Assembly (NCBI GenBank): GCA_021740625.1
Contig: JAIOZK010000035.1
Span: forward strand, 1-36,496
Length of the DNA stretch: 36,496 bases
Reading direction: 5' to 3'
Origin: Bacteroidales bacterium
GTDB lineage: Bacteria > Bacteroidota > Bacteroidia > Bacteroidales > JAIOZK01
How positions within the stretch are numbered: position 1 is the stretch's first letter; every line of letters starts with the position of its first letter. Shown one piece after another: positions 6,507 through 34,868 of this stretch. The notes under the pieces were generated by a model. That model was given only the letters and a program-made list of their open reading frames with translations. It was not told the origin of the DNA and made no database searches. Both the position numbers and the translations under genes were made by a program.

Positions 6507-6689
6507 GGTAATTATTGGTCATCGGTAGAATAAAATTTTAAAAGAAGGAGTAGATTATATTCATTTTGTTTTCACTTCGTTTCATGACATCCGTTTACAA
6601 TTTACAGGTAATTCAGGATATTCCTGATGCCGGGTTATAACAGACGAATAATAAGTAAAATTGAATATGGAAGGCTTGGTGATAATTTG

Positions 6690-6763
6690 TGGAGAATACC
6701 GGATTCGAACCGGTGACCTTTTGACTGCCAGTCAAACGCTCTAGCCAACTGAGCTAATTCCCC
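6690..6763 (-). tRNA. tRNA-Ala(GGC)
   Basis: The minus strand folds into a full cloverleaf. The acceptor is GGGGAAT/ATTCTCC with discriminator A, followed by a D arm GCTC..GAGC, an anticodon stem TTTGA/TCAAA with loop CTGGCAG (anticodon GGC), and a T arm ACCGG-TTCGAAT-CCGGT. The acceptor carries the G3:U70 pair that marks alanine tRNAs. CCA is not encoded. It is transcribed away from the peptide cluster. Confidence 0.95.
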
Positions 6764-6774
6764 AATTGAATGTG

Positions 6775-6805
6775 CAAATTTAATGTTTTTTCTTAATTCT
6801 GCCAA
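6775..6805 (-). promoter_or_regulatory. Promoter of tRNA-Ala
   Basis: On the minus strand a TTG (6803-6805) is followed after 20 nt by TAAATTTG (6775-6782), a full match to the Bacteroidota -33/-7 promoter form. The box ends 11 nt before the mature tRNA 5' end. Confidence 0.6.
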
Positions 6806-6929
6806 TGTATATAATAAAGCTGTTGAAAAGAATCCTAAACAAAACAAAAAATTCTATAATATTTTATGATTTACTTTATTCAATCCAAATAAGAATTTCT
6901 AATTTTCTTTTCCTTAAAACTTTAAATGT

Positions 6930-6937
6930 TACTTTTG
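6930..6937 (+). promoter_or_regulatory. Probable -7 box of the radical SAM peptide cluster
   Basis: TACTTTTG matches TAnnTTTG and lies 61 nt before the ATG of the first cluster gene (6999). No good -33 TTG was found, so this is a partial match. It would drive the genes from 6999 to 9617 and perhaps 9883. Confidence 0.45.
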
Positions 6938-6998
6938 GAGTTGTTAAGCTGCCTTGCAGCATGAATGCATAAAAAGAAAGGAATTTCTTAAAAAAACA

Positions 6999-7277
6999 AT
7001 GAAAGTTTTACGCTTTACAAAAAACAATATTGACACCTTTTATTTGTCCCCGTACATTGAATACACTTTTGACGATGAAAAGCTTGTTTTAAGGAATGAT
7101 CTCTTCGCGAAGGTACTGATTGCGCCGCAATTGAAAAAGGATCCGGAAAAGACCATGCAGATGTTAAAAGAGGGTATTCCGTCGGCAGATGCAGTTGCAT
7201 TTGTACGGGACAATTTTGTTTGTAATGATCCGCAGCAGGTACTGGAGGCATTTTTACAAAACGGTATTTTGGAGTGA
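6999..7277 (+). CDS. Small RRE/PqqD-like candidate, first gene of the peptide-modification cluster
   Basis: 92 aa from the ATG at 6999. The frame is open upstream to a TTG at 6954, but the added 15 residues are poor and the -7 box at 6930 fits 6999. The N-terminal third is beta-rich (FYLSPYIEYTF, KLVLRND). The C-terminal half has the helix pattern of a winged helix, ending DPQQVLEAFLQNGILE, which resembles the end of PqqD-type RiPP recognition elements. Such proteins bind the leader of a precursor peptide and present it to a radical SAM enzyme. This resemblance is inferred from pattern, not from a profile search. It is separated by only 3 nt from the radical SAM gene at 7281, so co-expression is likely. 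There is one Cys and no Trp-rich tail, which argues against it being a second precursor. Confidence 0.55.
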   Translation: MKVLRFTKNNIDTFYLSPYIEYTFDDEKLVLRNDLFAKVLIAPQLKKDPEKTMQMLKEGIPSADAVAFVRDNFVCNDPQQVLEAFLQNGILE

Positions 7278-7280
7278 TAT

Positions 7281-8681
7281 ATGGAAAAATTAACTGCAGT
7301 CAGAAGATCATTTATTTCCCCCTTTGTACAGGAAAAGGATTTTGATTTTACGGGAGGATACTGTTTCGAGAAAAATGGCAGTGCATTTTTATTGAATCCT
7401 GATGTCGGCAGTTCTATTTTGCTCGACCGGGATCATCTGGAAGAAATAAAAAACAAGAAGATCAGCGACGACCTGCAATTCAAATTGATCCAGCGGGGAT
7501 TTATGAAAGTGCCCGGAAGCCCCCAATGTACGGATGAAGAATCGATATTGCCCAGGTTTTTTATCATTGATCTGACGCAGGCCTGCAATTTTCGCTGTAC
7601 GTATTGTTTCAGGCATCTGGATGAAACACCCAGGACCATCAGTAATGAAACATTACAAAGCATCATTGACTTTATTGCTGATTACTGCAAAAAGACAAAT
7701 CAACGCGAAATCCACATACAACCCTGGGGCGGAGAACCCCTGATCGCCTGGAAAAAGATCCTCCACATACATGATGATTTACAGGAAAAAGGGATTAAAG
7801 CGGTTCTGACCATAGAGTCGAATGCCGGCCTCATCACACCGAGAGTAGCAAAGGAAGCATACGAAAGGGATATACGCATTGGTGTGAGCATCGACGGTTT
7901 GCCTGAAATCCACAACTTGCAGCGCAAGCTTGCCAATGGAAAGGATTCTTTTGAAAAGATGCGGCAGGGCATGCAGAACTTACGGGATGCAGGTTACGGA
8001 ACAAGGCATGGGATCATCACGGTACTCACGCGCAATACCCTTCCCTACCTGGAGGAATTCCTGGAATATTTTGCCATCGATTTGAAGATCGACCGTTTCA
8101 AGTTAAATATTGTCAAGGACAGTCCGGTGATGAAAGACAAAGGCCTTTGTCTGAGCAATGCCGAGATCATCGATTTTCAAAAACGTCTGCTGAAGAAACT
8201 GATCGAATTGAACAAACGCGGCCATTCCATCATTGAGTTGAATGTATTTGACAAGTTGCAGAACCTGCTGATCCGGAACAAAGGTAACATTTGCATTTCA
8301 CGGGGATGCCTGGGCGGTAAAAAGATGATCGCCTTCGACATGGACGGCAGGATTTTTCCCTGTGATATCACCGATTATAAGGAAGAAGCTGTGGGAAGCG
8401 TTAACGACGGTGAAGAGCTGATTCCCCTGCTCGAAAAGGCACATCACAAAACCGACTTCTTTGCAAAAAAGGAATCTGAAAATTGTGCTTCATGTCCCTG
8501 GTGGTTCTTTTGTAAAGGTGGATGCACCACGGCCATCAAGTATAAAAAGGGAAAGGTTGAAGGCGTGGACGAGCTGGAATGCCTTTCGAACCGCAGTCTT
8601 TATCCGGAACTGATCAGGATGTTCCTGGAGGAACACGAACTGGTAAAGATATTGACAAAAAATAAATTAGAAATCGCATAA
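7281..8681 (+). CDS. Radical SAM/SPASM peptide maturase A
   Basis: 466 aa. The radical SAM cluster motif CNFRCTYC gives C102, C106 and C109 (CX3CX2C), with SAM-binding GGEP at 150-153 and a beta-strand SIDG around 203. The C-terminal SPASM part has many further Cys likely to bind auxiliary Fe-S clusters: C338, C343, C361, C402, C405, C411, C415 and C434, in a CASCPWWFFCKGGC arrangement typical of peptide-modifying enzymes. Residues 1-90 precede the barrel and may contact the leader peptide. Established family roles of SPASM maturases include C-C, C-S and C-O crosslinks on ribosomal peptides. The precise reaction here is unknown. The next gene starts directly after its stop (TAAATG). Confidence 0.88.
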   Translation: MEKLTAVRRSFISPFVQEKDFDFTGGYCFEKNGSAFLLNPDVGSSILLDRDHLEEIKNKKISDDLQFKLIQRGFMKVPGSPQCTDEESILPRFFIIDLTQACNFRCTYCFRHLDETPRTISNETLQSIIDFIADYCKKTNQREIHIQPWGGEPLIAWKKILHIHDDLQEKGIKAVLTIESNAGLITPRVAKEAYERDIRIGVSIDGLPEIHNLQRKLANGKDSFEKMRQGMQNLRDAGYGTRHGIITVLTRNTLPYLEEFLEYFAIDLKIDRFKLNIVKDSPVMKDKGLCLSNAEIIDFQKRLLKKLIELNKRGHSIIELNVFDKLQNLLIRNKGNICISRGCLGGKKMIAFDMDGRIFPCDITDYKEEAVGSVNDGEELIPLLEKAHHKTDFFAKKESENCASCPWWFFCKGGCTTAIKYKKGKVEGVDELECLSNRSLYPELIRMFLEEHELVKILTKNKLEIA

Positions 8682-9617
8682 ATGAGGACGGCTTATTTTT
8701 CAATGAGTTTTGATTGCAACGAGAAGTGTATCTTTTGTCCTTGCTCGGAAGGGGCCAATACCATACCTGATATCAGCCTGGACGAAATGAAGCATTGCCT
8801 CGACCGCGCCATAGAGGAAACCGGTGTTGAGCATGTGCTGCTCAGTGGGGGGGAACCCACACTTAAAAAAGATTTACTGCCATTTCTTTCCTACATCGTT
8901 TCCAAGAAGCTTTCTATCGGTATATTGTCGAATGCCCTAAAATTTACCAGTGAGCGCTACCTGGATAAAATGCTGGAAATTACCGGGACGGAAAATCTGG
9001 AAATCACTACGGCCATTCACAGCCATATTCCCAAAAAGCATGAAAGGCTCACGCAATTGAAGAACAGTTTTGCAAAATCAATGCAGGGCATACAGAATGT
9101 ATACGAAAGAGGCGTAAAAACCACGGTAAAATACAATGTGATCAATTACACCTACAGAGATCTACCTGCATACACGGATTGGGTTTTTGAATCCTTTCCG
9201 GATGATGTAACCTACCTGATCTGCAACATCGATATCAATGGCGTGGCCTTGAAAAACAAAGATATGATCGCTGTGGAGTTTTCCGAATCAACACCCTTTG
9301 TGGAGGAAGCGCTTGATAAGGTTATTGCATACAGGAAAGCTGGCCGCAGAAGGAATGTGAAACTTTTTACAACCCCGCTCTGTACCATCGATCCGTATTA
9401 CTGGGGTTTTGTAAACAACCAGACAAAAGAAACACTCGCAGCTTTGCGGGTTCCGACAGATGTGCCGGAAAACGACAGGCTTTTTCTGAACATCAGCAGT
9501 GATACGGGAACCATGTTCGAACCCTGCAGGGAATGTGCCATGAAGGACCCCTGCCCGGGAACCTGGAAAAAGACAGGAGAATTATTTGGTGATAAGATTT
9601 TATCGCCTTTTCAATAA
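8682..9617 (+). CDS. Radical SAM enzyme B, second maturase of the cluster
   Basis: 311 aa. The cluster-binding CNEKCIFC is very close to the N-terminus (C12, C16, C19), with an extra C21 just after it. GGEP is at 56-59. The C-terminus has C234 and a CRECAMKDPC group (C282, C285, C291) that could hold an auxiliary cluster, but it lacks the full SPASM pattern of its neighbours. Its ATG abuts the stop of maturase A, so the two are almost certainly translationally coupled. The pairing of a long SPASM enzyme with a shorter one after a small protein is reminiscent of the HxsD-HxsB-HxsC order, but the HxsD-type signature is not seen. The function is inferred from context. Confidence 0.82.
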   Translation: MRTAYFSMSFDCNEKCIFCPCSEGANTIPDISLDEMKHCLDRAIEETGVEHVLLSGGEPTLKKDLLPFLSYIVSKKLSIGILSNALKFTSERYLDKMLEITGTENLEITTAIHSHIPKKHERLTQLKNSFAKSMQGIQNVYERGVKTTVKYNVINYTYRDLPAYTDWVFESFPDDVTYLICNIDINGVALKNKDMIAVEFSESTPFVEEALDKVIAYRKAGRRRNVKLFTTPLCTIDPYYWGFVNNQTKETLAALRVPTDVPENDRLFLNISSDTGTMFEPCRECAMKDPCPGTWKKTGELFGDKILSPFQ

Positions 9618-9679
9618 TGCATATCCTATTCAATGGGACGTGTGATAATTAAATATATGTAGAACCAAAACGAGATGCT

Positions 9680-9883
9680 ATGAAAAAAGTGAAAGTGTTT
9701 TCCAAAAAGCTCGATGCCAATATGACCATCGAGCTGGATGGCAATGGCCCGAGCATCACAAATCTGTACGAGGACAAGAATGCAGACTCTTCAGATTGTT
9801 CGCTGGCTACCGAGTTCTCCGACAGAGGATGGGAGGCATGGATGAACGCCGGATGGAATAACTGGGGCGCCATTTGTAATTAA
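9680..9883 (+). CDS. Candidate RiPP precursor peptide, Trp-rich C-terminal core
   Basis: 67 aa between radical SAM genes, 62 nt after maturase B. The N-terminal part (about 1-37) is charged and leader-like. The C-terminal part (about 38-67) has two Cys (C40, C66), four Trp (W51, W54, W59, W62) and F46. It contains two adjacent 8-residue units, GWEAWMNA and GWNNWGAI, each with W-x-x-W. WMN and WNN fit the aromatic-x-Asn form of the three-residue cyclophane sites known from triceptides, so crosslinked Trp rings are a reasonable guess. FSD at 46-48 could be another. No clear GG cleavage site was seen, and there is no protease or exporter gene beside it. That it is a precursor is inferred from size, position and residue bias. 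Confidence 0.7.
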   Translation: MKKVKVFSKKLDANMTIELDGNGPSITNLYEDKNADSSDCSLATEFSDRGWEAWMNAGWNNWGAICN

Positions 9884-9921
9884 TTTCAACAGGAGGTTGT
9901 TCTCATAGAAAATCACGGATG

Positions 9922-9954
9922 ATTGATGAAAATCGCTTCATTCGGGTAAATTTG
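9922..9954 (+). promoter_or_regulatory. Promoter of the third radical SAM gene
   Basis: ATTG (9922-9925) is followed after 21 nt by TAAATTTG (9947-9954), a good Bacteroidota promoter. It ends 28 nt before the ATG at 9983. The last maturase may therefore be expressed independently of the rest of the cluster. Confidence 0.6.
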
Positions 9955-9982
9955 GGAATGGCCTCCTTTTACAATTCTTCCC

Positions 9983-11326
9983 ATGCTTAAATTGTCGCGT
10001 TTCAGTCATCAGTTTTCGCTCAATGGAAAAACATTCCTGTATCATGCACTCAATTTCAAAAAAGCTGTCCTGAATGATGATGTTGTCAGGACAAATCAAC
10101 AGGGAGAATCCTATCTTGAGTTTGACCCTGTCTATCATGATGATCTTGCAAAAGAATTGCAGGAAAAAGGAATTTTGATCAGTTCCGATAAGGAAGACTC
10201 AGAATTATTGGATGAAAATCGCGCCCAGATTCAGAAACCTTACATCAGCACGGTTTATTTCTTCATCACCAATGATTGCAACCTGGCCTGTAGATATTGT
10301 TTCGAACGGCAATCGGTTCCGGAGTTCTTCAAAAAGGAAAACATGACGGAGGATGTTTTTATTAAGGGATTGTTGTTTTTTGAAAAACTCATCAGGCGCG
10401 ATCCGGAGAAGTTCCGGCACAAAAAAACCATCATCTTTTATGGAGGGGAACCCTTTATGAACAAGAAGCTTTTGTTTTATGCCATCGAACAAATACAAAA
10501 GCATAAAGCACAAGGGATTTTGCCCGAAGAAACACATATCATTGTTGTTACCAACGGAGTATTAATCAATGCCGGGGATGTGGATTTCATCAAATCGCAT
10601 GATGTAACCCTCACCTTCTCCATCGATGGAGACAGAAAAGCATGTTCCAACAGGGTGTTCCCGGGCAAGCAAGAAGCATTTGAACAAATCATTGAAAAAT
10701 ATACTATTTGTCGCGATGCCGGCATCAATATCAACATTGCCTGTACTTTAACACCAGAAACAATTGACAACTTTGATCCTTGCATAGACTTCTTTATCCA
10801 TGATTTGAAGATCAGCAATATTGGTTTCAATGCTTTGCTGGACAATGGGATCATACAAATCCCGGATCATTATGATGATGCGGCTGCAGCCTTTGTTGCA
10901 AAAGCAGGCAGAATACTGGAAGAACATGGTATTTCAGAAAACAGGACCGGTCGGCGCAAACAGGTATACCAAGCTGGCAAAGCATGCATTTTTGATTGCA
11001 ATGCCCAGGGGGGAAGGCAGATTGCAATTGCCCCCGGCGGTGAAGTAGGAATTTGTCATGAGCACATCGCCGACAGAAAACATTTTGTCACGGATATAGA
11101 TCAGGATTTTGTCCCCGAAGAAGATCCTGTATTCCTGGAATGGGCAAAACGCTCCCCCTTATACATTGAAAAATGCCTGGATTGTCCGGCTCTTGGATTG
11201 TGCGGCGGTGGATGCGTGATCAATACAGAACAAAAGCACCAGAGCATCTGGGAACCTGATGACAGGTTCTGCAAGCAAACCCTGGCCATTTTAAAGGACT
11301 TGTTGGTGATGAACAATGAAATTTAA
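9983..11326 (+). CDS. Radical SAM/SPASM peptide maturase C
   Basis: 447 aa. The cluster-binding CNLACRYC gives C99, C103 and C106, GGEP is at 154-157, and SIDGD is at about 213-217. The SPASM part has C335, C339, C358, C398, C401, C407, C411 and C430, with CLDCPALGLCGGGC near the end. Residues 1-88 form a separate N-terminal region. It shares layout with maturase A but is clearly diverged, so it may act on a different residue or in a different order on the 67-aa peptide upstream. It has its own promoter at 9922-9954. No gene follows on the plus strand until 12152, so the cluster probably ends here. Confidence 0.88.
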   Translation: MLKLSRFSHQFSLNGKTFLYHALNFKKAVLNDDVVRTNQQGESYLEFDPVYHDDLAKELQEKGILISSDKEDSELLDENRAQIQKPYISTVYFFITNDCNLACRYCFERQSVPEFFKKENMTEDVFIKGLLFFEKLIRRDPEKFRHKKTIIFYGGEPFMNKKLLFYAIEQIQKHKAQGILPEETHIIVVTNGVLINAGDVDFIKSHDVTLTFSIDGDRKACSNRVFPGKQEAFEQIIEKYTICRDAGININIACTLTPETIDNFDPCIDFFIHDLKISNIGFNALLDNGIIQIPDHYDDAAAAFVAKAGRILEEHGISENRTGRRKQVYQAGKACIFDCNAQGGRQIAIAPGGEVGICHEHIADRKHFVTDIDQDFVPEEDPVFLEWAKRSPLYIEKCLDCPALGLCGGGCVINTEQKHQSIWEPDDRFCKQTLAILKDLLVMNNEI

Positions 11327-11413
11327 CAGGCAAATCTTTTCCACGATAAAGTTTTAATAATTTCTCCGTTCCTGAATAAAAACAATGGATTGGGCGCTAT
11401 TTCAGTAGTGTTG

Positions 11414-12046
11414 TCACAATTGACGGTATCGCTCGGATTGATGTTTATACACCCCTGTGTTGTAGATCGTAAGTTCCTGCTTTTTCCAGTCCTGCTTTGC
11501 CTTTGTCACTCCGTCATCAAATTCATTGAACTGATGAACACGGAAAAAACGCAGGATAAGTTTTTCCCAGATACAATCCTGTTTCTGCATATTTTTCCGC
11601 TTGCATATTGCTTTTGTCTCCGAAAGGCGAATCCGAAAGCCCCTGTGTAAATTCATCATCCACCTGGGCAATCGAATAATCGCTGAATTCGGTGAAGGGA
11701 GAATTGTATTTATCTAAATCTCTGAAATAGTTACTGCTTTTATTGATGTCGGGGAAAAATAGAACCTGATTCGTATCCTTATTCCAGTTGGGTTCGAAAA
11801 AGTGAACGTGGGTAACACAAATACCATCATTCCTTCCACAACGTATATAAAGATTTGGATAGGTTACATAAACAGCTTTTTCGTTGTTGCTGAGCAAATA
11901 AGAAATGAAATTACCACCAGCTTTTTGTTCAATGAGGCCGTTAGGGTACTTTCAAATGTTTCTTTTTTCATGGCAGTGGGTTGACAAGAAGAGGCTGAAA
12001 TAAACAAAACAATAAACACGTGCAGGGACAGTGGATAATATTTCAT
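11414..12046 (-). pseudogene. Frameshifted lipoprotein gene, function unknown
   Basis: The gene starts at 12046 with a lipoprotein signal (lipobox SASSC) and runs to about LNKKLV, near 11920. Coding then continues in another frame as NFISYLLSNNEKAVYV down to about 11545. It shifts again at a run of six T's (minus strand), where one extra base breaks TYPAFF from RVHQFNEFDDGVTK, and ends at 11414. Joined, it would be about 210 aa. I do not recognise the family. Two independent shifts suggest decay, but the second is in a homopolymer and could be a sequencing error. It is divergent from thpR. Confidence 0.6.
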
Positions 12047-12151
12047 GATTGTTAATTTGGGTTTTAGTATTAAACCTAAAGCTGAGGATTTTTTGAGGAA
12101 ATGTGTAATTTGGTCCCTACAATTTGAGAGAAACGAACAATTGTCACGGAA

Positions 12152-26526: not shown

Positions 26527-27183
26527 TCATTCCAGCACATTCCAACTCACGCAATTCAAATTCCCACCTTCCTTTGCAAGTTCATTACACCTTACCGGGA
26601 TGACATCTGTTCCTCGGAAACACTCCCTCAGTGTCTTCTCGGCTTCTTTATCCATGTCCTGACCGAACGCAGGCATGAAAATGACACCTTCCATCTGCAG
26701 GAAGTTCATGTAGTCTCCTGATGCATCTGAGTGCTTCTGGTTATCATACATGCTCGTGGGTAGTACGACCGTTTTCAGCCCTGCGTTATGCAGGGTAGTT
26801 CGGAGGCATTTATCGAATGCTTTGTTTTTCTCTTTGGTGTTGTCATTTATCAGTACAGTGTCCCCGTCAATAAACCGAACCAACCCGTCACTGTGTCCTG
26901 TGAAGTCATGCGGCTGTTCGGGGATCAGGATTAACTTGTCAACTTTGAGGACTCTTTCAAGCTCGCTAATCAATTCATCGAATTTATATTGGTGAAGATT
27001 CTCGGAAAATATACGGGTGGTCATGATAATTTTATTTTCCCATTGAACTACGTTTCCTCCGTCCAGAATTATTTCCGAGGTAGTAACCTTCTTGCCTAAC
27101 TTCTCTGCTACCAATACTCCATCGGTTTTTTTGTTTTCGTATTTCTTGAATCGGAGATAGCTTGGGTCGTATTTGAACTGCAC
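26527..27183 (-). CDS. Truncated agmatine deiminase / peptidylarginine deiminase family protein
   Basis: 218 aa from a GTG that directly follows an in-frame TAA. The residues seen are the C-terminal part of the pentein fold. DGGNVVQWENKIIM (41-54) is followed by FTGHSDGLVRF (His97, Asp99), YMNFLQMEGVIFMPAFG (158-174) and GGNLNC (catalytic Cys211). Full-length relatives are roughly 300-370 aa. About 90-100 N-terminal residues are missing, including the usual substrate-binding W/RD region. It is therefore probably inactive or altered as an agmatine/arginine deiminase. The sequence just upstream is a KilA-N remnant, not the missing N-terminus. It may be a decaying fragment with an intact frame. 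Confidence 0.75.
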   Translation of the reverse strand: MQFKYDPSYLRFKKYENKKTDGVLVAEKLGKKVTTSEIILDGGNVVQWENKIIMTTRIFSENLHQYKFDELISELERVLKVDKLILIPEQPHDFTGHSDGLVRFIDGDTVLINDNTKEKNKAFDKCLRTTLHNAGLKTVVLPTSMYDNQKHSDASGDYMNFLQMEGVIFMPAFGQDMDKEAEKTLRECFRGTDVIPVRCNELAKEGGNLNCVSWNVLE

Positions 27184-27185
27184 TT
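27173..27185 (+). repeat. 13-bp direct repeat, right copy
   Basis: TTGAACTGCACTT, identical to 26462-26474. It overlaps the GTG start of the truncated deiminase. It could mark a rearrangement junction. Confidence 0.5.
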
Positions 27186-27227
27186 AGGTCTGCTCTCCTT
27201 AAAGAATCTTTATGTAATGTGCAGTTA

Positions 27228-27461
27228 TTATTTTGTATCCTGATGCATCTAGGTTCCTTGAGAGACTTTTGAGGTGTTTCCACCACGCACCGTCTGAACT
27301 GGCTGATAATCAACGTTGTGAGATTTCCTCACTTCGGTTAAAGTGTCTATAAATGAGACGGTTGCTGGTAATCTCAACCAATCAACAGGGCGTTTCCCAA
27401 AAGGCTTTGCCATCTCGGTGGCATTGAAAAAGCCGACCCCATTCCCGAGATCGGCTTCTAA
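27228..27461 (-). pseudogene. KilA-N domain gene remnant
   Basis: In the same frame as radC and directly after its TGA stop, the minus strand reads GNGVGFFNATEMAKPFGKRP, then VDWLRLPATVSFIDTLTEVR, and VQTVRGGN down to QGT. A TAG at 27249-27251 sits where the family has Trp (QGTW-MHED), followed by MHQDTK and TAA at 27228-27230. This is a clear KilA-N domain core, typical of phage antirepressor-like DNA-binding proteins, lacking its start, broken by a nonsense codon and cut off after. It shows that the region is phage-derived or phage-visited. Confidence 0.8.
27430..27457 (-). terminator. Possible terminator after radC
   Basis: On the minus strand AAGCCGA-14 nt-TCGGCTT is followed by TTTT, 5 nt after the radC stop. 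It lies within the KilA-N remnant's old coding sequence, so the hairpin may be fortuitous. Confidence 0.4.
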
Positions 27462-27962
27462 TCATAACTTCCCTTCATCCGCAAAAGAATAGTAATTCTC
27501 CCCGGACAAGATTAAATGATCCAACACATCCATATCCATCAACTTCCCTGCATCCTTTAGCTTCCTGGTTAGCCTGATGTCCGATTCACTTGGTTTAAGA
27601 TTCCCACTTGGATGATTATGCCCACAGATGATACTGGATGCATTCGCTTTTAAAGCTGTCTGGAAAATGATCTTCGGATCAGCAACACAACCCGAAATAC
27701 CACCCCTACCGATAAGCGACCATCCCAATACCATATTTGCCCGGTTCAGGCATAACAGCATGAATTCCTCCACATGATCCATGCTACCGGACCAGACACC
27801 CCTGAAAAGCTTCTCAGCATCCTCAGAGCAGGTAATCTTTAATCTTTTGGATTGGGGTGTCCGGTTGATATATCTGATCTTTATTTCGGCTAAGAAATGA
27901 TTCTGCGCCTTGTTGGATTGATCATAGCTTTCTTTGATCATTGCCAGCAATTCATCATTCAT
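27462..27962 (-). CDS. Short RadC / JAB-domain protein
   Basis: 166 aa. The MPN/JAB metalloprotease-like motif is present: Glu in VEEF (65-66), GHNHPSG with H115 and H117, and D128 in SESD. The helix-hairpin-helix N-terminus of chromosomal RadC (about 220 aa) is missing. This is the form found on plasmids, ICEs and prophages. The true activity of the family is unresolved; repair or anti-restriction roles have been proposed. Its start overlaps the preceding gene's end by 8 nt. The frame downstream runs into the KilA-N remnant. Confidence 0.9.
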   Translation of the reverse strand: MNDELLAMIKESYDQSNKAQNHFLAEIKIRYINRTPQSKRLKITCSEDAEKLFRGVWSGSMDHVEEFMLLCLNRANMVLGWSLIGRGGISGCVADPKIIFQTALKANASSIICGHNHPSGNLKPSESDIRLTRKLKDAGKLMDMDVLDHLILSGENYYSFADEGKL

Positions 27963-28377
27963 CGGATGCGTGTTTTTGGGTCCATCGGGCTGACCTGAAG
28001 ATAAAACGCAGCAGAAGCAATCCCGGAGCCAGGTACAAAAACACAGTTTTCATATTGCCCCATACCCATTCCTTATGGAACTTCTGCCGGTAATAATCAA
28101 AGCGGTCGTTGTAGATGGCATCTTCCAGGGCAGAAATCTTTTGATCATATCTGGACCTGTTATTCTTTATCCTTCCTAAACTGATCGAATTGGATTCTGA
28201 ATTCTGCCATTGCCTGAATATTTCCTTTCCTTCCTGTGACACCTTGCCATGTGTTGGCGGCATCCAACCTATGTATAATACCGCACCCACAAGCAGGGTT
28301 GCCAGGGCGGCATAGAATACAAGGTTAAAGTTTGTTTTGATCTCTTTTGCTATTTTGTGTTTTGATTCGTTTTTCAT
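27955..28377 (-). CDS. Two-TM membrane protein of the accessory region
   Basis: 140 aa with membrane segments at about 18-38 and 110-128 and a charged helical region between them (GKVSQEGKEIFRQWQN). I do not recognise a family. It overlaps radC by 8 nt, so the two are translated together. It sits behind the terminator at 28412-28464 and starts a small transcription unit. Confidence 0.65.
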   Translation of the reverse strand: MKNESKHKIAKEIKTNFNLVFYAALATLLVGAVLYIGWMPPTHGKVSQEGKEIFRQWQNSESNSISLGRIKNNRSRYDQKISALEDAIYNDRFDYYRQKFHKEWVWGNMKTVFLYLAPGLLLLRFIFRSARWTQKHASDE

Positions 28378-28411
28378 TTTTAATTGTTTTTAAAATAGTT
28401 CGACAATAAAA

Positions 28412-28464
28412 AGCCATGACCTTTCCAGGAGAATGTGATCATCCACTATGGAAAAGCCATGGCT
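28412..28464 (-). terminator. Long-stem terminator of the ATPase-DUF3871 unit
   Basis: AGCCATGACCTTTCCA and TGGAAAAGCCATGGCT pair over 16 bp with two mismatches. On the minus strand a T tract (TTTTTATT) follows. It lies 31 nt after the stop of the gene at 28495. Confidence 0.75.
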
Positions 28465-28494
28465 AAGATTTCAATTAATTACTGCTGGTCTTAT

Positions 28495-28746
28495 CTATAC
28501 TACTATCCTGAATAAACCATAATAATAAGGCGTATTATCAATGATATATACCAGCCGGTACTCCTGAGACATCAGGACTTTGGATACTTGCAAGCGTTCA
28601 CCTGCCTGCAATCCCCCGGCTTCAATGATCACTTCTACCGGGAAAGGGCAGAACAGGCGAACGACTTTCTTTGGGGTTATCACAAGCAATGACCTGGAAT
28701 TGATATAGCGCGAAATCTGGCTCAGTTCATCTTTTCCCATAGTCAT
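28495..28746 (-). CDS. Small protein downstream of DUF3871, unknown
   Basis: 83 aa from the ATG at 28746; 28740 is a second possible start. It is mostly beta-like (VVRLFCPFPVEVIIEAGGL, LVYIIDNTPYYYGLFRIVV), without signal or TM. The start is 3 nt after the DUF3871 stop, so it belongs to the same operon. It has the size and context of a DNA-metabolism accessory protein, but no family is recognised. Confidence 0.65.
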   Translation of the reverse strand: MTMGKDELSQISRYINSRSLLVITPKKVVRLFCPFPVEVIIEAGGLQAGERLQVSKVLMSQEYRLVYIIDNTPYYYGLFRIVV

Positions 28747-28749
28747 ACG

Positions 28750-29724
28750 CTAACTTAAATACCAGAAACTACTCCTGTTCTCCAGGGCATCCCTGATCTG
28801 CAATGAGAATTCCAGCGCATTCACATTCTTATCCAGAAAACTGTCGATGTAGCTTGATTTATTTGCGCCCGTGAATAGATTGAACAGGTTCCACAAACCA
28901 ATCTCTCCGGTGGCAGCACTTCCAAAGTTTTTGTCTTTGTAATACTGCTTCACAACTGTATTAACCTGAGAATCTCCCAAATACAGAGGGTGTATTTCTT
29001 TGCGCCCGGAAGAAGGCAAATGATTATACATCCTTGCCCTTCCGATCAATTGTGCAAATTGCTTTTCAGATAGGGAGTAATTATCTAAACTACTCAGGGA
29101 CTTGCTTGCCCGGTATGCATCGAAATTGCTCAGGAGCTTGTATATGGCTTCCAGAAGCTCATGCACTGACCGAACCCTAACATCAGCCGCAAATCCATCT
29201 GTTGAAATGCACAGATTGATACATACCCAGTTCTTGAAACCAATAAACACTTTAAAGCGTTCCTCAGCCTTGCGAGAATGCAGGTTCATCTGGTTGTAGG
29301 CTCTTACTCCTCCAATGGTCAATGAAAGGGAATTCCCGCCTACATAATCACTGATGGTCGGAATCTCGATCATAAAAGCCATGCGCTCATAATACAGAGT
29401 CTTCTCATGCTCCTGCAATTGATCTACCGGCTTTCCAACCGCTTCCGGGATTCTTCCCTTTTGGGGATGTGAAACCCGCACAGCAGGCTTGAGAACCCTT
29501 TCATTGCGAAAGATATGATTTGCCACTTCCTGGGTTGCATTGATGAATTCCTGGTGAGAGATGGTCGACTCATTGTCTTTCGTGAAGACGGGAATTATAC
29601 ACTTCTCCTCTAGGGACTGCAGTTTAACAGACTTGGTATTGGCTTGCATGAATTCATCCGAAGAGGTATCCTCGATCAGTTCAAGCTGTCCTGTTTGCTG
29701 GTTATCTATGTTTACTGTTTCCAT
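28750..29724 (-). CDS. DUF3871 family protein
   Basis: 324 aa. The sequence matches my memory of the Bacteroidota DUF3871 family. Features include PEAVGKPVDQLQEHEKTLYY, SDYVGGNSLSLTIGGVRAYN and, near the end, NLFNLFTGANKSSYIDSFL. The role is unknown. Families with this size and place, next to a Sak4-like ATPase, are sometimes DNA-annealing or replication proteins, but I cannot show this. It is separated by 2 nt from the ATPase gene. Confidence 0.78.
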   Translation of the reverse strand: METVNIDNQQTGQLELIEDTSSDEFMQANTKSVKLQSLEEKCIIPVFTKDNESTISHQEFINATQEVANHIFRNERVLKPAVRVSHPQKGRIPEAVGKPVDQLQEHEKTLYYERMAFMIEIPTISDYVGGNSLSLTIGGVRAYNQMNLHSRKAEERFKVFIGFKNWVCINLCISTDGFAADVRVRSVHELLEAIYKLLSNFDAYRASKSLSSLDNYSLSEKQFAQLIGRARMYNHLPSSGRKEIHPLYLGDSQVNTVVKQYYKDKNFGSAATGEIGLWNLFNLFTGANKSSYIDSFLDKNVNALEFSLQIRDALENRSSFWYLS

Positions 29725-29726
29725 AA

Positions 29727-30581
29727 TTAATTGTTTTGATTGTTCTCGAATTCTGCTACACTATCGCTAATGATCTTCTTACGACGGGTCAAATCCGGTG
29801 TGATCTGTTCCCTGAACTCAGGGTAACGATCGTAAATTTCCATCAGATCATCCATGGTATCGGTTTCCCGGATTTGCTTTCTGACCTGATCCAGGGAAAT
29901 ACCCGAGAGGCACCATTGCTTGATCTTCTTGCCTGTGGCGGTAGTGACCTTGAAATGTGGCTTATTCATAAACAAGCCCGTTCTGTCCTTCGAAGCAACG
30001 GCATTGTGTTTCAGATCCAAATCAAGCACTACGGTCATCTCGTAATCAAGACCTTCTCGTGTAATACCCTTAAGTCCCACCTTCTCTGGGACATATTTGC
30101 CTCCTTTGTCAGTCAACACATAATCCTGCTTGGTTCTGATGGTAGCAATGATATGTGCCGGACTTTGCAGCATCTTCTGCACGAATGCATTATGCCGGGG
30201 GGTTAGCTGGTTCCAATTGGCAAAGCTGTTTCCCGGCATTTTGCTGTGAATATCCAGGATGCCACCGGAGCTTTCCCACTCATGACTGCAACTGTCCACT
30301 ATGATAACTTCCATCCCTTCATTCTCACAGGCTGTTATCGCCTCTGAATACTTCTCAGGACTAAATGGAGCTTTTATGGGCAATACATTGTAATCGCCCA
30401 GGTGTTCATAGAGATCACTGGAATTGTTTTCAGAATCTATCACTACGATCTTGTTCCAGTCTCCACAAAGCCCGTAAGCGATCAACAAAGCGGAATAGGT
30501 TTTTCCTGACCCTGATGGTCCTTGCAGACCCAGTTTGATCCGGGCTTGCTTTCTCTCTGCTTTCCTTAATTTCATACTCAT
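29727..30581 (-). CDS. Phage-type RecA-like ATPase (Sak4/AAA_24-like)
   Basis: 284 aa from the ATG at 30581 (30575 also possible). The open frame to 30644 adds a poor N-terminus. Walker A is GPSGSGKT at about 21-28, and VVIDSEN and EVIIVDSCSHEWE are the Walker B/acidic strands. Downstream motifs typical of phage nucleotide-binding proteins are LTPRHNAFV, HIIATIRTKQDYV and KDRTGLF. Sak4-like ATPases work with single-strand DNA-binding or annealing proteins in phage recombination. It is the first gene of the operon ending at 28495. Confidence 0.85.
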   Translation of the reverse strand: MSMKLRKAERKQARIKLGLQGPSGSGKTYSALLIAYGLCGDWNKIVVIDSENNSSDLYEHLGDYNVLPIKAPFSPEKYSEAITACENEGMEVIIVDSCSHEWESSGGILDIHSKMPGNSFANWNQLTPRHNAFVQKMLQSPAHIIATIRTKQDYVLTDKGGKYVPEKVGLKGITREGLDYEMTVVLDLDLKHNAVASKDRTGLFMNKPHFKVTTATGKKIKQWCLSGISLDQVRKQIRETDTMDDLMEIYDRYPEFREQITPDLTRRKKIISDSVAEFENNQNN

Positions 30582-30626
30582 ATAAATTTTTGATTTAAAC
30601 ACATGTGAATTTTTGATATAAAAAAC

Positions 30627-30648
30627 GGGGAACGCATGATGCATCCCC
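30627..30648 (-). terminator. Terminator between the small-protein genes and the ATPase operon
   Basis: On the minus strand GGGGATGCAT and ATGCGTTCCCC pair with one bulge, followed by TTTTTT with one G inserted before it. It lies 39 nt after the stop of the 97-aa gene. Confidence 0.6.
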
Positions 30649-31961: not shown

Positions 31962-34868
31962 ATGAAAGAAAAATTAAGCAAATTAACTAAGAAAGTTGTT
32001 GGAAGCAACATTGCCAAAAAGGCACTTGGTTTTGGCGCAAAAGCAATTTTAACTGCAGCAATGGTCTATGGAGGATATCAAAACATAAAGGCTAATCAAG
32101 CTTCTGCAAAACCCTTAGAAGGTTTTTATGGCAAGCACAATACGGGCTATGCTTTTGTTGGAGAAAGCAATCAACAATCAAGAAATTACGAAGATAAAAC
32201 TATAAATTACATTGATGCAAAAGAAAGGAATTATAATGTAAAAGAAGAAGAGGCAAATCCAAACAAAAAAACTTCACTTAATTATGTTGAAAAAAGATCT
32301 CCTAAAAAAATAAAACCAAATAAATCTCTCGAGGAGGAGAGTTCTGAAAATTCTAATACATCTTTCACCTCTACTTTGTCAACATCTAACGATTATTTTA
32401 GTTCTCCAACATCAACAAATTACGCATCCGATGATACAACAAATGAAATACAAAAAAAAGAATCAACTAAAAAAATAAAACCAAACAAAGTAAAAGAAAA
32501 AAAATTTCCGATTGTAAATAAGGGACTTAAAAATAAAGGAGATTCTGTTACACATAAACAAGCAGATAGTCTAGAACTTTTTTATGTTCCTTCTGTAAAC
32601 TCTTATCTTAATGAAAAAACTTCGGACAAAGTAAGGAAAAAAATCATGGAAGGAAATTCAAGAGATGTAACTTCCTTTTATGGGGATCAAGTTTTGAACC
32701 CATTTGCTCAACCAAATGTTCTTTCAACAAACTATTCAAATCCTGGAGAAGATAATCTTCATTTTTATGGTTCAGGAGATGCAAATGATGACGGGGTAAT
32801 TAACTGGACAGATTATGATTTGGTAAATTCGGGAACAGCAAACGATAGAACAGATCTTGATGGAGATGGAAGCAGATCAACAACAACAGATGCCCAAATT
32901 CTTTATGATTATTTGACAGATCAAATGCCCTACCTTCCAGCACATTGGGAGCATTTGACTCAAACAGAAAAAGTAGATTGGTTCGAGAAAACTTTGGCAA
33001 TAGACCAAACAGATTTAATTCCTCCCGGACCTAATTGGGATTGTGATGATTTTGCATTTCAGCTTTGCATTAATGAGGCGGGAATTGAAAATATTGAAAA
33101 TGCGGAAATAAATTTCAATGTTTATGACACAACAATGAATGGTAGATTTAATTCACCTGTTTATAGAGTTACAACTACTTCAGCAAACAACATTGCACAT
33201 AGAATTGACGCCAATTTGGTTGGAGATAATCCTATTAATTTTGAAGATTGGTATTTTGTGGAACCCCAGGACGATTCTCAAGTTTCTCCCGGAGACCCAA
33301 GTATGGACCCAAATGAGCCTGTTAAAATTGATAGGTATTCTTATATTTGGAGTGAAAACATTCAACAATACGTACATGGTTATGTTAATGCTGTTTGGTT
33401 CAACTTAACAAACGGAACCCCCACAGTTTCATGGCAACATCCGGATTTGGTCACTCAAAGGCCTGCAAAAGACTTCTATATTAATATAGGAGGAACTGCG
33501 CCTGAAGATATAACTATTGAATACGACCAATCATATGAGAATTCAAGCCCCTCAATGGAAGATGCGGGAGAAGTTACAGGATACGCGGATTGGGCAACTG
33601 TTTCATTTTCAGATTCTACAAACAGAGTTGGAACTACAAGCGATTCAAGTTTCTTTAACTATGATATCTTTAGATCAATATTGGCAAAATCAGATTCCTC
33701 TTTAGTTATTGATACGACCTATAAATCAATAGATTCAAGGTATGGAAGACCAGCACAATTAATTCAGGTAAGAGATACTGAAACGCCAGTTATAACACAA
33801 AACCATAACGGAGATGAAATGTTTTACTCAGATTGGTTGGCAAACGGATTCCAACATTCGACAGCTACGGACAATTCTGGATACCCTGAATTGTTTGAAG
33901 AACAAACCTCAAACCAAGGAACAAATCCTGACAGTTGTAACTATTACAATTTTACAATAAATGTTTCAGACAGTGCTGTAGATCCTACTGGAAATTATTC
34001 TTTAAACAGTTATAATGTAGATGTTGTTTTAGATGATACGTATTTTACTTTTGTTCCTGAGGACCAAGAAATTTCTTACTCTCCAGATTTAAATTTATTT
34101 CCGGAAAACACTGGAGGTTACGCACAGGCAACAAACAATGCAGGAGTTCCAGTAGGAATTAGTTATTTCGATATTTCTAATCAAGATCCAGATTCAACCC
34201 AATGCAACCATTACAATTATAGTGTAAATAGGATTTGGGAAGCTCAAGACCAAGTTTGTTTTAACCCCCCTATATCAGACGGACAAAATATAGACATTTC
34301 CAAATCTTACTCTATAAGTTTAGATAGTTTTCCACAAGATGTGGTTATAGGTAATAATGATCCCACTCATCCAGACCAAACCGGATGGATACAAGGTACA
34401 GATACTTTGGTTCCTTGGTATCCAGTTCAAAGGCCATTTGAAGACGAAATAATAGAGGCAACCCCCTCAGATACAATATGGCACAGACACTGGAGCATGA
34501 AAGATATTTGTGATCAATCAGAGGATTATGGTTATCAGGTAATACACAAAGATGTTTATTTAGGAAAAGAAGATTTAGAATCTTTATTGTACAAATCAGA
34601 TTTAAAACTTCCATATCCAAATCCGATTAAAGGAGGAATGACAAACTTTTCATATGAACTAAAAGAAAATGCTGATGATGTTAGATTGACAGTGAGAGAT
34701 GTTCTTGGAAGAGAAATAGAACAGTTTGATTTAGGATCTAAAGAAAAAGGAAACCATACTTTAAGAAAAGACTTCAACAATCTTTCTTCAGGAAACTATT
34801 TTGTAACGCTTGACGTTAATGGGAAACCTATTGATACCGAAAAGCTGATTAAAATTAAGAATGATTAA
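31962..34868 (+). CDS. T9SS type A-sorted protein with dockerin-like and papain/transglutaminase-like segments
   Basis: 968 aa. The N-terminus has a hydrophobic signal-like stretch (about 18-49, ending QASA). Residues 50-260 are low-complexity Lys/Asn/Ser, with KKIKPNK at 115-121 and again at 170-176. A dockerin-like pair of calcium loops lies at 272-318 (GDANDDGVINWTDYDLV and DLDGDGSRSTTTDA). Then CDDFAFQLC (C361), AHRID (H413) and WYFVEPQ (E434) have the spacing of a papain/transglutaminase-like Cys-His-acid fold. The middle and C-terminal parts are beta-sandwich-like. Residues 884-968 are a T9SS sorting domain (PYPNP, LSSGNYFVTL). It is Lys/Asn-rich and AT-rich, unlike the first T9SS protein. 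It is tail-to-tail with the next gene, sharing 4 nt. Confidence 0.75.
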   Translation: MKEKLSKLTKKVVGSNIAKKALGFGAKAILTAAMVYGGYQNIKANQASAKPLEGFYGKHNTGYAFVGESNQQSRNYEDKTINYIDAKERNYNVKEEEANPNKKTSLNYVEKRSPKKIKPNKSLEEESSENSNTSFTSTLSTSNDYFSSPTSTNYASDDTTNEIQKKESTKKIKPNKVKEKKFPIVNKGLKNKGDSVTHKQADSLELFYVPSVNSYLNEKTSDKVRKKIMEGNSRDVTSFYGDQVLNPFAQPNVLSTNYSNPGEDNLHFYGSGDANDDGVINWTDYDLVNSGTANDRTDLDGDGSRSTTTDAQILYDYLTDQMPYLPAHWEHLTQTEKVDWFEKTLAIDQTDLIPPGPNWDCDDFAFQLCINEAGIENIENAEINFNVYDTTMNGRFNSPVYRVTTTSANNIAHRIDANLVGDNPINFEDWYFVEPQDDSQVSPGDPSMDPNEPVKIDRYSYIWSENIQQYVHGYVNAVWFNLTNGTPTVSWQHPDLVTQRPAKDFYINIGGTAPEDITIEYDQSYENSSPSMEDAGEVTGYADWATVSFSDSTNRVGTTSDSSFFNYDIFRSILAKSDSSLVIDTTYKSIDSRYGRPAQLIQVRDTETPVITQNHNGDEMFYSDWLANGFQHSTATDNSGYPELFEEQTSNQGTNPDSCNYYNFTINVSDSAVDPTGNYSLNSYNVDVVLDDTYFTFVPEDQEISYSPDLNLFPENTGGYAQATNNAGVPVGISYFDISNQDPDSTQCNHYNYSVNRIWEAQDQVCFNPPISDGQNIDISKSYSISLDSFPQDVVIGNNDPTHPDQTGWIQGTDTLVPWYPVQRPFEDEIIEATPSDTIWHRHWSMKDICDQSEDYGYQVIHKDVYLGKEDLESLLYKSDLKLPYPNPIKGGMTNFSYELKENADDVRLTVRDVLGREIEQFDLGSKEKGNHTLRKDFNNLSSGNYFVTLDVNGKPIDTEKLIKIKND

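Follow-up and report, generated by a model that had tools for sequence, protein, structure and literature searches.

Many new peptide cross-links have come from SPASM enzymes. These enzymes make W-x-N/D cyclophanes (PMC11002830), and radical SAM maturases form Cys-Asp and Cys-Asn thioethers (PMC11002830, PMC9413430). BamA, a protein of the outer membrane, is inhibited by darobactin and dynobactin, which are both Trp-linked, and the Trp(i)-Trp(i+3) link of cihunamide is reported in a P450 context (PMC11002830). The backbone can also be edited, as when the radical SAM enzyme PlpX and its RRE partner PlpY excise tyramine (PMC11002830). Here we describe a five-gene cassette (6999-11326, + strand) in a 36,496-nucleotide contig of a Bacteroidales bacterium, the whole of which is called the window below. 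The cassette would be a rare variant of SPASM-type RiPP biosynthesis that matches none of the named peptide families to which it was compared. Its five genes probably form a self-contained RiPP pathway in which three radical SAM enzymes act on one Trp-rich core, with Trp-centered links and a thioether of Cys as the probable products.

Organization and conservation of the cassette

The initial annotation had proposed a five-gene radical SAM cluster with tight spacing. All five ORFs were found, all on the + strand, and the spacings from P1 to P5 are 3, 0, 62, and 99 nt, the first two matching the 3-nt gap and stop-start contact described. The cluster had been taken to start at 6930 and this was corrected to the start of P1. 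The proteins were compared with NCBIfam and Pfam model cut-offs, with the best 25 NCBIfam models listed for each enzyme. The Pfam radical SAM model scored above its gathering score in P2, P3, and P5. Among the models listed, no window protein reached a family-level NCBIfam cut-off. The initial annotation had not recognized the gene set as a named system.

Table 1 Features of the cassette and its flanks, with the identity of each protein to its counterparts in two related loci.
Feature	Coordinates	Strand	Identity, L012 and L013 (%)	Description
tRNA-Ala (GGC)	6689..6763	-		upstream of cassette, one edge of variable site
Possible Bacteroidota -7 promoter element TACTTTTG	6930..6937	+		weak
P1	6999..7277	+	41 and 50	92 aa; candidate leader-peptide binder; possibly RRE-like predicted fold
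P2	7281..8681	+	69 and 72	466 aa; radical SAM enzyme; full 7-Cys SPASM motif
P3	8682..9617	+	73 and 73	311 aa; short HxsC-like radical SAM enzyme
P4	9680..9883	+	76 and 78	precursor peptide of 67 aa; C-terminal WEAWx[ND]AGWNNWGAICN conserved
Hairpin, terminator/attenuator-like	9891..9967	+		strong; between P4 and P5
P5	9983..11326	+	59 and 64	447 aa; radical SAM/SPASM; divergent, related to FibroRumin maturases

A single scan, seeded with P3, of a genome collection at species level returned two relatives, L012 and L013. In each, the set of five genes is complete and its order unchanged, with proteins 41-78% identical to those of the window, P1 being the least conserved of the five. Because all three copies (window, L012, and L013) are tied to this search, the frequency of the peptide or of P5 without P3 cannot be deduced from them. 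Among 395 genomes of the phylum, P3 was detected at E<=1e-20 only in the window's own genome. No gene outside the five was found to be common to the three loci. The retention of five genes in order in both relatives, together with a protein conserved despite saturated third codon positions, indicates that the cassette is more than a chance grouping.

A Pfam scan of the neighboring proteins (3 in the window, 4 each in L012 and L013) recognized no peptidase or peptide exporter; the initial annotation had noted no protease or exporter beside the cluster. A C39-peptidase domain protein is encoded on another contig of the window's genome, so export is possible. In a genome of the same genus (G103), a tRNA-Ala in the opposite orientation has on one side the helicase gene that also occurs at the window's tRNA-Ala, and on the other side different genes. 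CsgG/FlgO-type proteins are encoded downstream in L013.

A conserved, Trp-rich probable precursor peptide

The initial annotation would have been refuted by a 67-aa ORF that is not conserved next to these enzymes; in both relatives returned, the ORF is conserved between the same enzymes. All three loci have the small precursor beside modifying enzymes that is the general mark of a RiPP pathway. Between copies of P4, 51-60% of third and 7-12% of second codon positions differ; the protein is under selection, being conserved while third positions are saturated. Its C-terminus keeps four Trp and one Cys in all three peptides. The peptides of the window and L013 contain two Cys and that of L012 one, and only the penultimate residue (Cys66) is invariant. 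Since there is a single invariant Cys, the description of P4 as Trp/Cys-rich is right for Trp and wrong for Cys.

Both W54-x-[N/D]56 and W59-N60-N61, which follow the triceptide-type aromatic-x-Asn/Asp/Arg/Ser motif, are present in the core in all three peptides, as are two W-x-x-W pairs (W51/W54 and W59/W62). Tyr is absent from the core, CX3D repeats are absent from P4, and none of the three peptides contains His. The N-terminal half is also conserved (KVxVFSKKL..N.TI...G.GPSIT.LY). P4 had no family match at E<=1 in NCBIfam or Pfam.

Three distinct radical SAM enzymes and a small candidate partner protein

Two SPASM radical SAM enzymes and a shorter one had been proposed, and the motifs agree: P2 and P5 have the full SPASM motif, and P3 lacks it. 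In all three loci, P2 contains CxxxCxxC (CNFRCTYC in the window) and the pattern CX9-15GX4C...CX2CX5CX3C, and P5 contains CxxxCxxC and the full seven-Cys motif. The Pfam SPASM model scored 15.8 bits on P2 (cut-off 21.5) and was not among the matches listed for P5, so the SPASM call is based on the Cys motif together with matches to models of SPASM families; the generic NCBIfam SPASM domain model passes its cut-off of 27 on P5 of L012 (48.1 bits). P3 contains CxxxCxxC (CNEKCIFC in the window) and, in all three loci, CX2CX5C, with no CX9-15GX4C, and its Cys residues C234, C282, C285, and C291 probably serve one auxiliary cluster.

The best NCBIfam models for P2 were PapB (130.3 bits), DynA (123 bits, cut-off 450), and HxsB (114.6 bits), and each score falls far short of the cut-off. 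Also among its best 25 listed were the cyclophane-forming families GrrM/OscB (84.5 bits, cut-off 310), YhhB (91.2, 445), AmcB (81.7, 425), and FxsB (64.9, 370); DarE scored 91.1 bits (cut-off 650). The top model for P3 was HxsC (112.9 bits, cut-off 267.9), followed by a mixed list that includes NirJ, AhbC, and MoaA at 55.2 bits and less (61.6 and less in L012). In L012, HxsB and HxsC reached 126.1 bits (cut-off 370) and 119.5 bits (cut-off 267.9), both below. The relatives listed for P2 and P5 are mostly peptide or protein maturases. Against characterized non-peptide families, no enzyme reached a cut-off among its best 25 models.

P5 scored 288.4 bits in the window and 307.3 bits in L012 against the FibroRumin maturase model TIGR04136, missing the cut-off of 400; a Campylobacter maturase used as a positive control scored 707.4 bits, and L009 (337.9 bits) and L010 (219.1 bits) likewise fell under the cut-off. 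In direct comparisons, P5 scored 227-298 bits with the FibroRumin-type L009 and L011, 51 or less with P2, and 8 or less with Roseomonas Hxs proteins. Its second NCBIfam model was PapB (118.4 bits), and its best solved relative was CteB (5wgg). The precursors beside L011 are Cys-rich, the small ORF before the L010 maturase is Cys-rich by eye, and TIGR04135 (cut-off 45) matches the Campylobacter precursors with scores of 54.9 and 62.0 bits.

P1 had been described as PqqD/RRE-like. The RRE part of this description depends on a weak fold likeness, and a sequence match to an RRE family was not found: P1 has no meaningful match in Pfam or NCBIfam, and the three P1 proteins have no NCBIfam match at E<=5 in a library whose inclusion of the HxsD model is unconfirmed. 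The AlphaFold2 model (pLDDT 78.6) predicts strands followed by three helices. Foldseek returned a best E of 0.33, with none at E<=0.001, and TbiB1 RRE-leader complexes were among the best neighbors; VIA placed TbiB1-leader complexes in rows 2 and 4 (Z 4.1 and 4.0), in a list that also holds ThcOx and McbBCD, with all Z under 5 and unrelated folds reaching 4.0. On this weak fold comparison, P1 is possibly RRE-like.

Noncoding elements

The hairpin between P4 and P5 has z-scores of -5.11 in the window, -4.13 in L012, and -5.89 in L013 (0 of 200 shuffles each). The hairpins occupy the same place in the three loci and are dissimilar in sequence by eye; a terminator scan did not flag the window copy. 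A hairpin before P5 allows separate regulation of this gene. The candidate promoter element resembles the Bacteroidota -7 consensus TAnnTTTG. In L012 (8226) the element also precedes gene 1, by 28 nt, but in L013 (7649) the distance to gene 1 is 243 nt, and the pattern has 33 matches across both strands of the whole window.

A proposed pathway and its alternatives

In the proposed pathway, P4 would be the substrate, with its N-terminal half as leader and about the last 17 residues as core. P1 would bind the leader as a separate RRE subunit, most likely serving P3, P2, or both. P2 and P3 would form cross-links on Trp residues by means of SAM-derived radicals. By analogy with triceptide W-x-N/D cyclophanes, the likeliest sites would be W54-x-[N/D]56 and W59-N-N61, an assignment that we make tentatively. 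We are similarly cautious about P5, a relative of the maturases of Cys-rich peptides, which would most likely form a thioether from Cys66, the only invariant Cys, plausibly with an Asn as partner. The hairpin after P4 would yield more peptide message than P5 message, and leader removal and export would fall to proteins encoded elsewhere. It is highly probable that all three enzymes act on P4, and the core may carry several different modifications, as first suggested. As a default guess, the product would be a secreted antagonist or signal. Three distinct enzymes, each below the family-level cut-offs of the models listed, would then converge on a short, nearly invariant Trp-rich core, which makes the chemistry directly testable with one peptide, four proteins, and a 2-Da mass shift for each bond.

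For a relative of maturases that act on Cys-rich peptides, a single conserved Cys in the substrate is not much, and this counts against the pathway as drawn. The locus might consist of two neighboring units, with P1-P4 making one RiPP and P5 modifying a peptide encoded elsewhere; the strong hairpin stands between P4 and P5 in all three loci, and P5 does not belong to the lineages of P2 and P3 and has relatives that adjoin Cys-rich peptides. We regard this as very unlikely, as P5 directly follows the peptide in all three loci despite differing flanks, no further small ORF beyond the five genes appears to be conserved, and Cys66 is invariant. It is unlikely that one enzyme, most likely P3 with P1, splices, epimerizes, or cleaves the backbone with no cross-link, a reading compatible with the main one except for that step. 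The short P3, with no full SPASM motif and Cys for about one auxiliary cluster, and the possibility that P1 is a separate RRE protein would suit the PlpX/PlpY precedent. However, the top curated match of P3 is HxsC, no PlpX-type model is among its best 25 listed, and the core has no Tyr. We know of no report on the chemistry of HxsC.

PQQ is made from the precursor PqqA with an RRE-like partner and SPASM enzymes. P4 could similarly give rise to a small redox cofactor that stays inside the cell and is not an exported product, with leader and core cut down to a few cross-linked residues derived from Trp. This parallel, the conserved rather than variable core, and the lack of a recognized exporter or protease beside any of the three loci speak for it; it is nevertheless quite improbable, given that no dehydrogenase or other client enzyme is common to the neighborhoods, that rarity (P3 in 1 of 395 phylum genomes) is unlike a cofactor, and that the C39-peptidase domain protein makes export possible. 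A role of the enzymes in a non-peptide pathway, for example of tetrapyrrole or molybdopterin type, with the small ORF encoding a regulatory or structural protein, is extremely unlikely: NirJ, AhbC, and MoaA do follow HxsC in the list for P3, but at about half its score and far below cut-off, the matches of P2 and P5 are mostly to maturases of peptides or proteins, and the small ORF is leader-core shaped and co-conserved.

Going beyond the proposed pathway, the cassette could define a new RiPP class, in which three radical SAM enzymes of separate lineages and a stand-alone leader-binding subunit turn the 17-residue core into a compact polycycle with both W-x-x-W pairs bridged and a thioether from the penultimate Cys as closure. 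We consider this unlikely; if true, the bridges (Trp-Trp or Trp to beta-carbon) would include radical SAM Trp-Trp chemistry at i,i+3.

Comparison with known systems

The spacing of W51/W54 and W59/W62 recalls the Trp(i)-Trp(i+3) C-N link of cihunamides, which is set among P450 chemistry as described in PMC11002830, whereas the enzymes here are radical SAM. Triceptides, darobactin, and dynobactin have Trp-centered cross-links made by SPASM enzymes, in triceptides from a ring carbon to a beta-carbon. The core motifs W-x-[N/D] and W-N-N resemble known Trp(i)-Asn/Asp(i+2) cyclophane sites (PMC11002830), but P2 and P5 score far below the GrrM/OscB, YhhB, DarE, and DynA cut-offs where these are listed, and the linkage here is putative. 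Ranthipeptides (PapB, CteB; non-alpha-carbon thioethers from Cys, for which the cassette offers the invariant Cys66) share with the cassette PapB as the best model for P2 and the second for P5. They differ in that P2 and P5 (130.3 and 118.4 bits) miss the PapB cut-off of 340 (NF047865) and that P4 has one conserved Cys and no CX3D repeats.

The His-Xaa-Ser system (HxsA/B/C/D) likewise pairs a long radical SAM enzyme with a shorter one, side by side in B-C order, and the C-terminal CX2CX5C of P3 also occurs in the one Roseomonas HxsC examined. In contrast, P2 reaches 115 of 370 bits for HxsB and P3 113 of 268 for HxsC, the full SPASM motif of P2 is missing from the Roseomonas HxsB, the three peptides without His can have no His-Xaa-Ser repeats, P1 has no family match, and a FibroRumin-like enzyme is added. 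As in the FibroRumin system (TIGR04136/TIGR04135), the maturase gene comes right after a small peptide gene, the arrangement seen on a Campylobacter plasmid, and P5 aligns over nearly the whole maturase model. Unlike that system, P5 is under the 400-bit cut-off, P4 has no TIGR04135 match and one conserved Cys, and the cassette has P1 and two extra radical SAM enzymes, none of which is annotated within the 5 kb shown at the Campylobacter copy. The cassette suggests that the range of FibroRumin-like maturases extends beyond Cys-rich peptides.

A conserved five-gene radical SAM cassette

We found that the five-gene radical SAM cluster proposed in the initial annotation consists of five consecutive ORFs on the plus strand and occurs again at two other loci. 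The intergenic gaps of 3, 0, 62, and 99 nt match the tight spacing described there. P2, P3, and P5 each pass the Pfam radical SAM cut-off; the Pfam SPASM model is under its cut-off in P2 and is not among the matches listed for P5. The CxxxCxxC motif together with the full SPASM Cys pattern was present in all three homologues of both P2 and P5, and in all three P3 homologues CxxxCxxC is accompanied by a shorter C-terminal CX2CX5C.

Genes of the cassette (ORF list) and their identity to the counterparts in L012 and L013
Gene	Product	Position	Strand	Length (aa)	Identity, L012	Identity, L013
P1	possibly RRE-like protein	6999-7277	+	92	41%	50%
P2	SPASM radical SAM enzyme	7281-8681	+	466	69%	72%
P3	short HxsC-like radical SAM enzyme	8682-9617	+	311	73%	73%
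P4	Trp-rich precursor peptide	9680-9883	+	67	76%	78%
P5	radical SAM/SPASM enzyme	9983-11326	+	447	59%	64%

The two loci were found by scanning a species-level genome collection with P3, in which 29 stretches matched and two encode a relative; diverged copies will be missed because the scan matches exact 8-residue patterns. The relatives lie in MAGs labelled 'Sphingobacteriia bacterium' (L012) and 'Bacteroidales bacterium' (L013). The complete set is present in both, with gene order and strand preserved, and the P1-P2 gap is 55 nt in L012 versus 3 nt in the window. The recurrence of P4 beside the same ordered enzymes supports the earlier reading of the cluster as a peptide-modification system. 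The cassette is best read as a SPASM RiPP biosynthesis system, unusual in how many enzymes, and of how many kinds, it devotes to one short core.

P4 is a conserved peptide under selection

The alignment of the three P4 peptides contains invariant blocks in both halves. At the C-terminus, which reads W51-E-A-W54-x-[N/D]-A-G-W59-N-N-W62-G-A-I-C66-N67, four Trp and one Cys are invariant in all three; the other Cys of the window peptide, C40, is substituted in L012. The copies differ at 51-60% of third and 7-12% of second codon positions, and the last 25 codons contain 9-12 synonymous and 2-5 nonsynonymous codon changes. Because 14 of the 15 comparisons between genes had saturated synonymous distances, dN and dS are given only for P4 between L012 and L013, the one computable comparison (0.21 and 3.7). 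P4 is thus a protein under selection and not a chance ORF. A conserved double-glycine leader was considered and rejected, since GG is absent from the window and L013 peptides; L012 has GGG aligned with GNG of the other two.

The cassette lies in a variable site beside a tRNA gene

No similarity was detected outside the five genes between the window, L012, and L013 (blastp, E<=1e-4, all stop-to-stop frames of >=35 codons); some of the blastp matches between loci are shadows in alternative frames or cross-matches between the enzymes P2, P3, and P5. The cassette is flanked by a PIF1-type helicase and a LigT-type 2'-5' RNA ligase in the window, by SAM hydroxide adenosyltransferase, HAD hydrolase, and alanine and saccharopine dehydrogenase types in L012, and by a SUKH/TPR protein, a T9SS-tail protein, and CsgG/FlgO-type proteins in L013. 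The neighbouring proteins scanned at the three loci included no recognisable protease or peptide exporter, in agreement with the initial annotation. The window makes up all of contig 9 in a 4.0-Mb genome (52 contigs, an estimated 95% complete). A different contig of this genome encodes, in a frame of 736 codons, a C39 peptidase domain protein that is at most a speculative candidate for handling P4.

The same-genus genome G103 keeps both genes flanking the cassette (68 and 67% identity), and between them it carries Kelch, DUF6599, DUF362, and PIN-domain genes. Across window positions 6794-12151, blastn (E<=1e-5) detected no similarity to G103. A tRNA-Ala gene adjoins the helicase gene in the window (6689-6763) and in G103 (locus L019, 2894-2968), where its orientation with respect to the helicase gene is reversed. 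With the flanks kept, the intervening content differing from that of G103, and the tRNA-Ala at the edge, the cassette therefore occupies a variable site beside a tRNA gene. Loss of the cassette from G103 would be the alternative, and insertion at this site is the likely explanation.

Two other regions of the window were recorded. Positions 26527-30644 on the minus strand encode a peptidyl-arginine deiminase of the Porphyromonas type together with RadC, DUF3871, and AAA_24 proteins, a group that may be a mobile island. The 968-aa protein encoded at 31962-34868 carries a C-terminal sorting domain for type IX secretion and precedes a stretch falling to 28% GC.

Relatives are rare in the genomes searched

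P3 was matched in three of 295 order genomes at E<=1e-15: in that of the window and in two others with 28-29% identity (G091, 4.5e-17; G183, 6.6e-16). The window alone was found in 395 phylum genomes at E<=1e-20. As a profile, P3 recovered the window and one of the weak order-level matches in 295 class genomes, with no further copy, and only the window in two family genomes; the samples overlap. P5 matched the window and two loci at 30% identity in the 295 order genomes. At both loci, inspection by eye of 1.5 kb on each side showed a small ORF rich in Cys preceding the enzyme and no gene resembling P2 or P3. Four P4 matches were obtained in the same genomes at E<=0.01, the window and three at 28-33% identity; the three, lying within long frames (438, 817 aa) or containing stops, were taken as noise.

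Scans of viral contigs with P3, P2, P4, or profile A3 returned no relative, and profile A5 gave one partial match at 24%. A tblastn search of plasmids was negative for P2 at E<=1e-20. With P3 it gave three weak matches sharing 23.5-27.9% identity, two of which are annotated as HxsC, and with P5 it detected a single FibroRumin system. A literature search, covering mainly titles and abstract starts of the papers listed, with most subscription papers outside its scope, yielded no paper recognised as describing this gene set, and a search for 'FibroRumin' found none.

The enzymes resemble several maturase families

Among the best 25 of 81, 53, and 74 NCBIfam models for P2, P3, and P5, respectively, no cut-off was reached by a window protein. 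P2 scored 130 bits with PapB, 123 with DynA, and 115 with HxsB, none of them decisive. Its best solved relative is an anaerobic sulfatase-maturating enzyme; the fold of its AlphaFold2 model matches anSME, SuiB, and CteB among other barrels, a comparison that adds little because the model is poor (pLDDT 51.2).

The best model for P3 was HxsC (113 bits, next best 55, cut-off 268). In an HxsC search of 395 phylum genomes, P3 (106.5 bits) ranked second, behind a single partial match at 251 bits; none of the 395 passed the cut-off, and 14 control genomes were also without a match, leaving the search without a positive control. Compared with single proteins, P3 scored 50.5 bits with Roseomonas HxsC and 52-57 bits with three other radical SAM proteins, which suggests a weaker Hxs link than the family model does. 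Membership of the cassette in the Hxs family was rejected, as its scores lie below the family cut-offs. A Paenibacillus polymyxa plasmid (L028, 3863-6062) carries two adjacent radical SAM genes, the first of which equals Roseomonas HxsC in closeness to P3. A defence role was also rejected, as PADLOC gave viperin models only, matching the radical SAM part.

The nearest model for P5 was that of the FibroRumin maturases, with 288 bits (307 for L012) against a cut-off of 400; a genuine member from a Campylobacter plasmid scored 707, compared with 338 and 219 for two relatives that are unassigned. A P5 profile scored 298, 292, and 208 bits with the FibroRumin-type loci L011, L009, and L010, and 51 with P2, 37 and 31 with two Paenibacillus radical SAM proteins, and 6 with Roseomonas HxsB. 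The best solved relatives of P5 are CteB (5wgg) and 8vpo. FibroRumin membership of the cassette was rejected, as the P5 score lies below the cut-off. The Campylobacter plasmid locus L011 (4688-8490) encodes a FibroRumin maturase and two tandem Cys-rich precursors that pass TIGR04135, and the gene of a 697-aa hypothetical protein overlaps the maturase end. L009 (1223-2850) and L010 (1278-2859) encode divergent FibroRumin-type maturases under the family cut-off, beside Cys-rich small ORFs that match neither TIGR04135 nor another family.

None of the three P1 proteins had a meaningful Pfam or NCBIfam match (best Pfam E 0.12 and 0.16, to unrelated-looking families). The AlphaFold2 model of P1 (pLDDT 78.6) consists of strands followed by three helices. 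Its top Foldseek match was the lasso-peptide RRE TbiB1 with leader (E 0.33), with none at E 0.001. VIA ranked 7ly4 (Z 4.9), TbiB1 (4.1, 4.0), ThcOx (4.1, 3.9), and McbBCD (3.3), with unrelated pieces up to Z 4.0; BmdC (7ly4), ThcOx, and McbBCD carry RRE-type domains. From the modelled fold, P1 is likely an RRE, a leader-peptide-binding domain.

A hairpin separates P4 from P5

A strong hairpin was found between P4 and P5, close behind the P4 gene, at all three loci (window 9891-9967, z -5.11; L012 11251-11279, z -4.13; L013 10792-10826, z -5.89), with z-values reached by 0 of 200 shuffles each. By eye, the hairpin sequences are dissimilar across the loci. The number of U residues directly following the stem is three for the window, four for L012, and six for L013, and a consensus terminator scan did not call the window hairpin. 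Between P3 and P4 there is no comparable signal in the window (z -0.33) or L012 (-0.48), and L013 shows a modest signal (-2.65). The simplest reading is that the P4-P5 hairpin is an attenuator favouring the peptide over the P5 message.

Proposed chemistry and comparison with known systems

We propose that P1 would capture the leader of P4, that P2 and P3 would modify its Trp-rich core, and that P5 would use its invariant Cys; this allocation of reactions among P2, P3, and P5 is a guess. Precedents are described in two published sources. PlpX and its RRE partner PlpY together excise tyramine (PMC11002830), and DynE links Trp with the Asn at position i+3 (PMC11002830; PMC9413430). XncB and OscB connect Trp with an Asn, Asp, or Arg at position i+2 (PMC11002830; PMC9413430), a link that W54-x-[N/D]56 and W59-N-N61 of P4 fit. 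PapB and its relatives form Cys-Asp and Cys-Asn thioethers (PMC11002830; PMC9413430), and Cys66 of P4 fits this chemistry. Cihunamide contains a Trp-Trp link between residues three apart (PMC11002830), which the W-x-x-W pairs of P4 fit by spacing.
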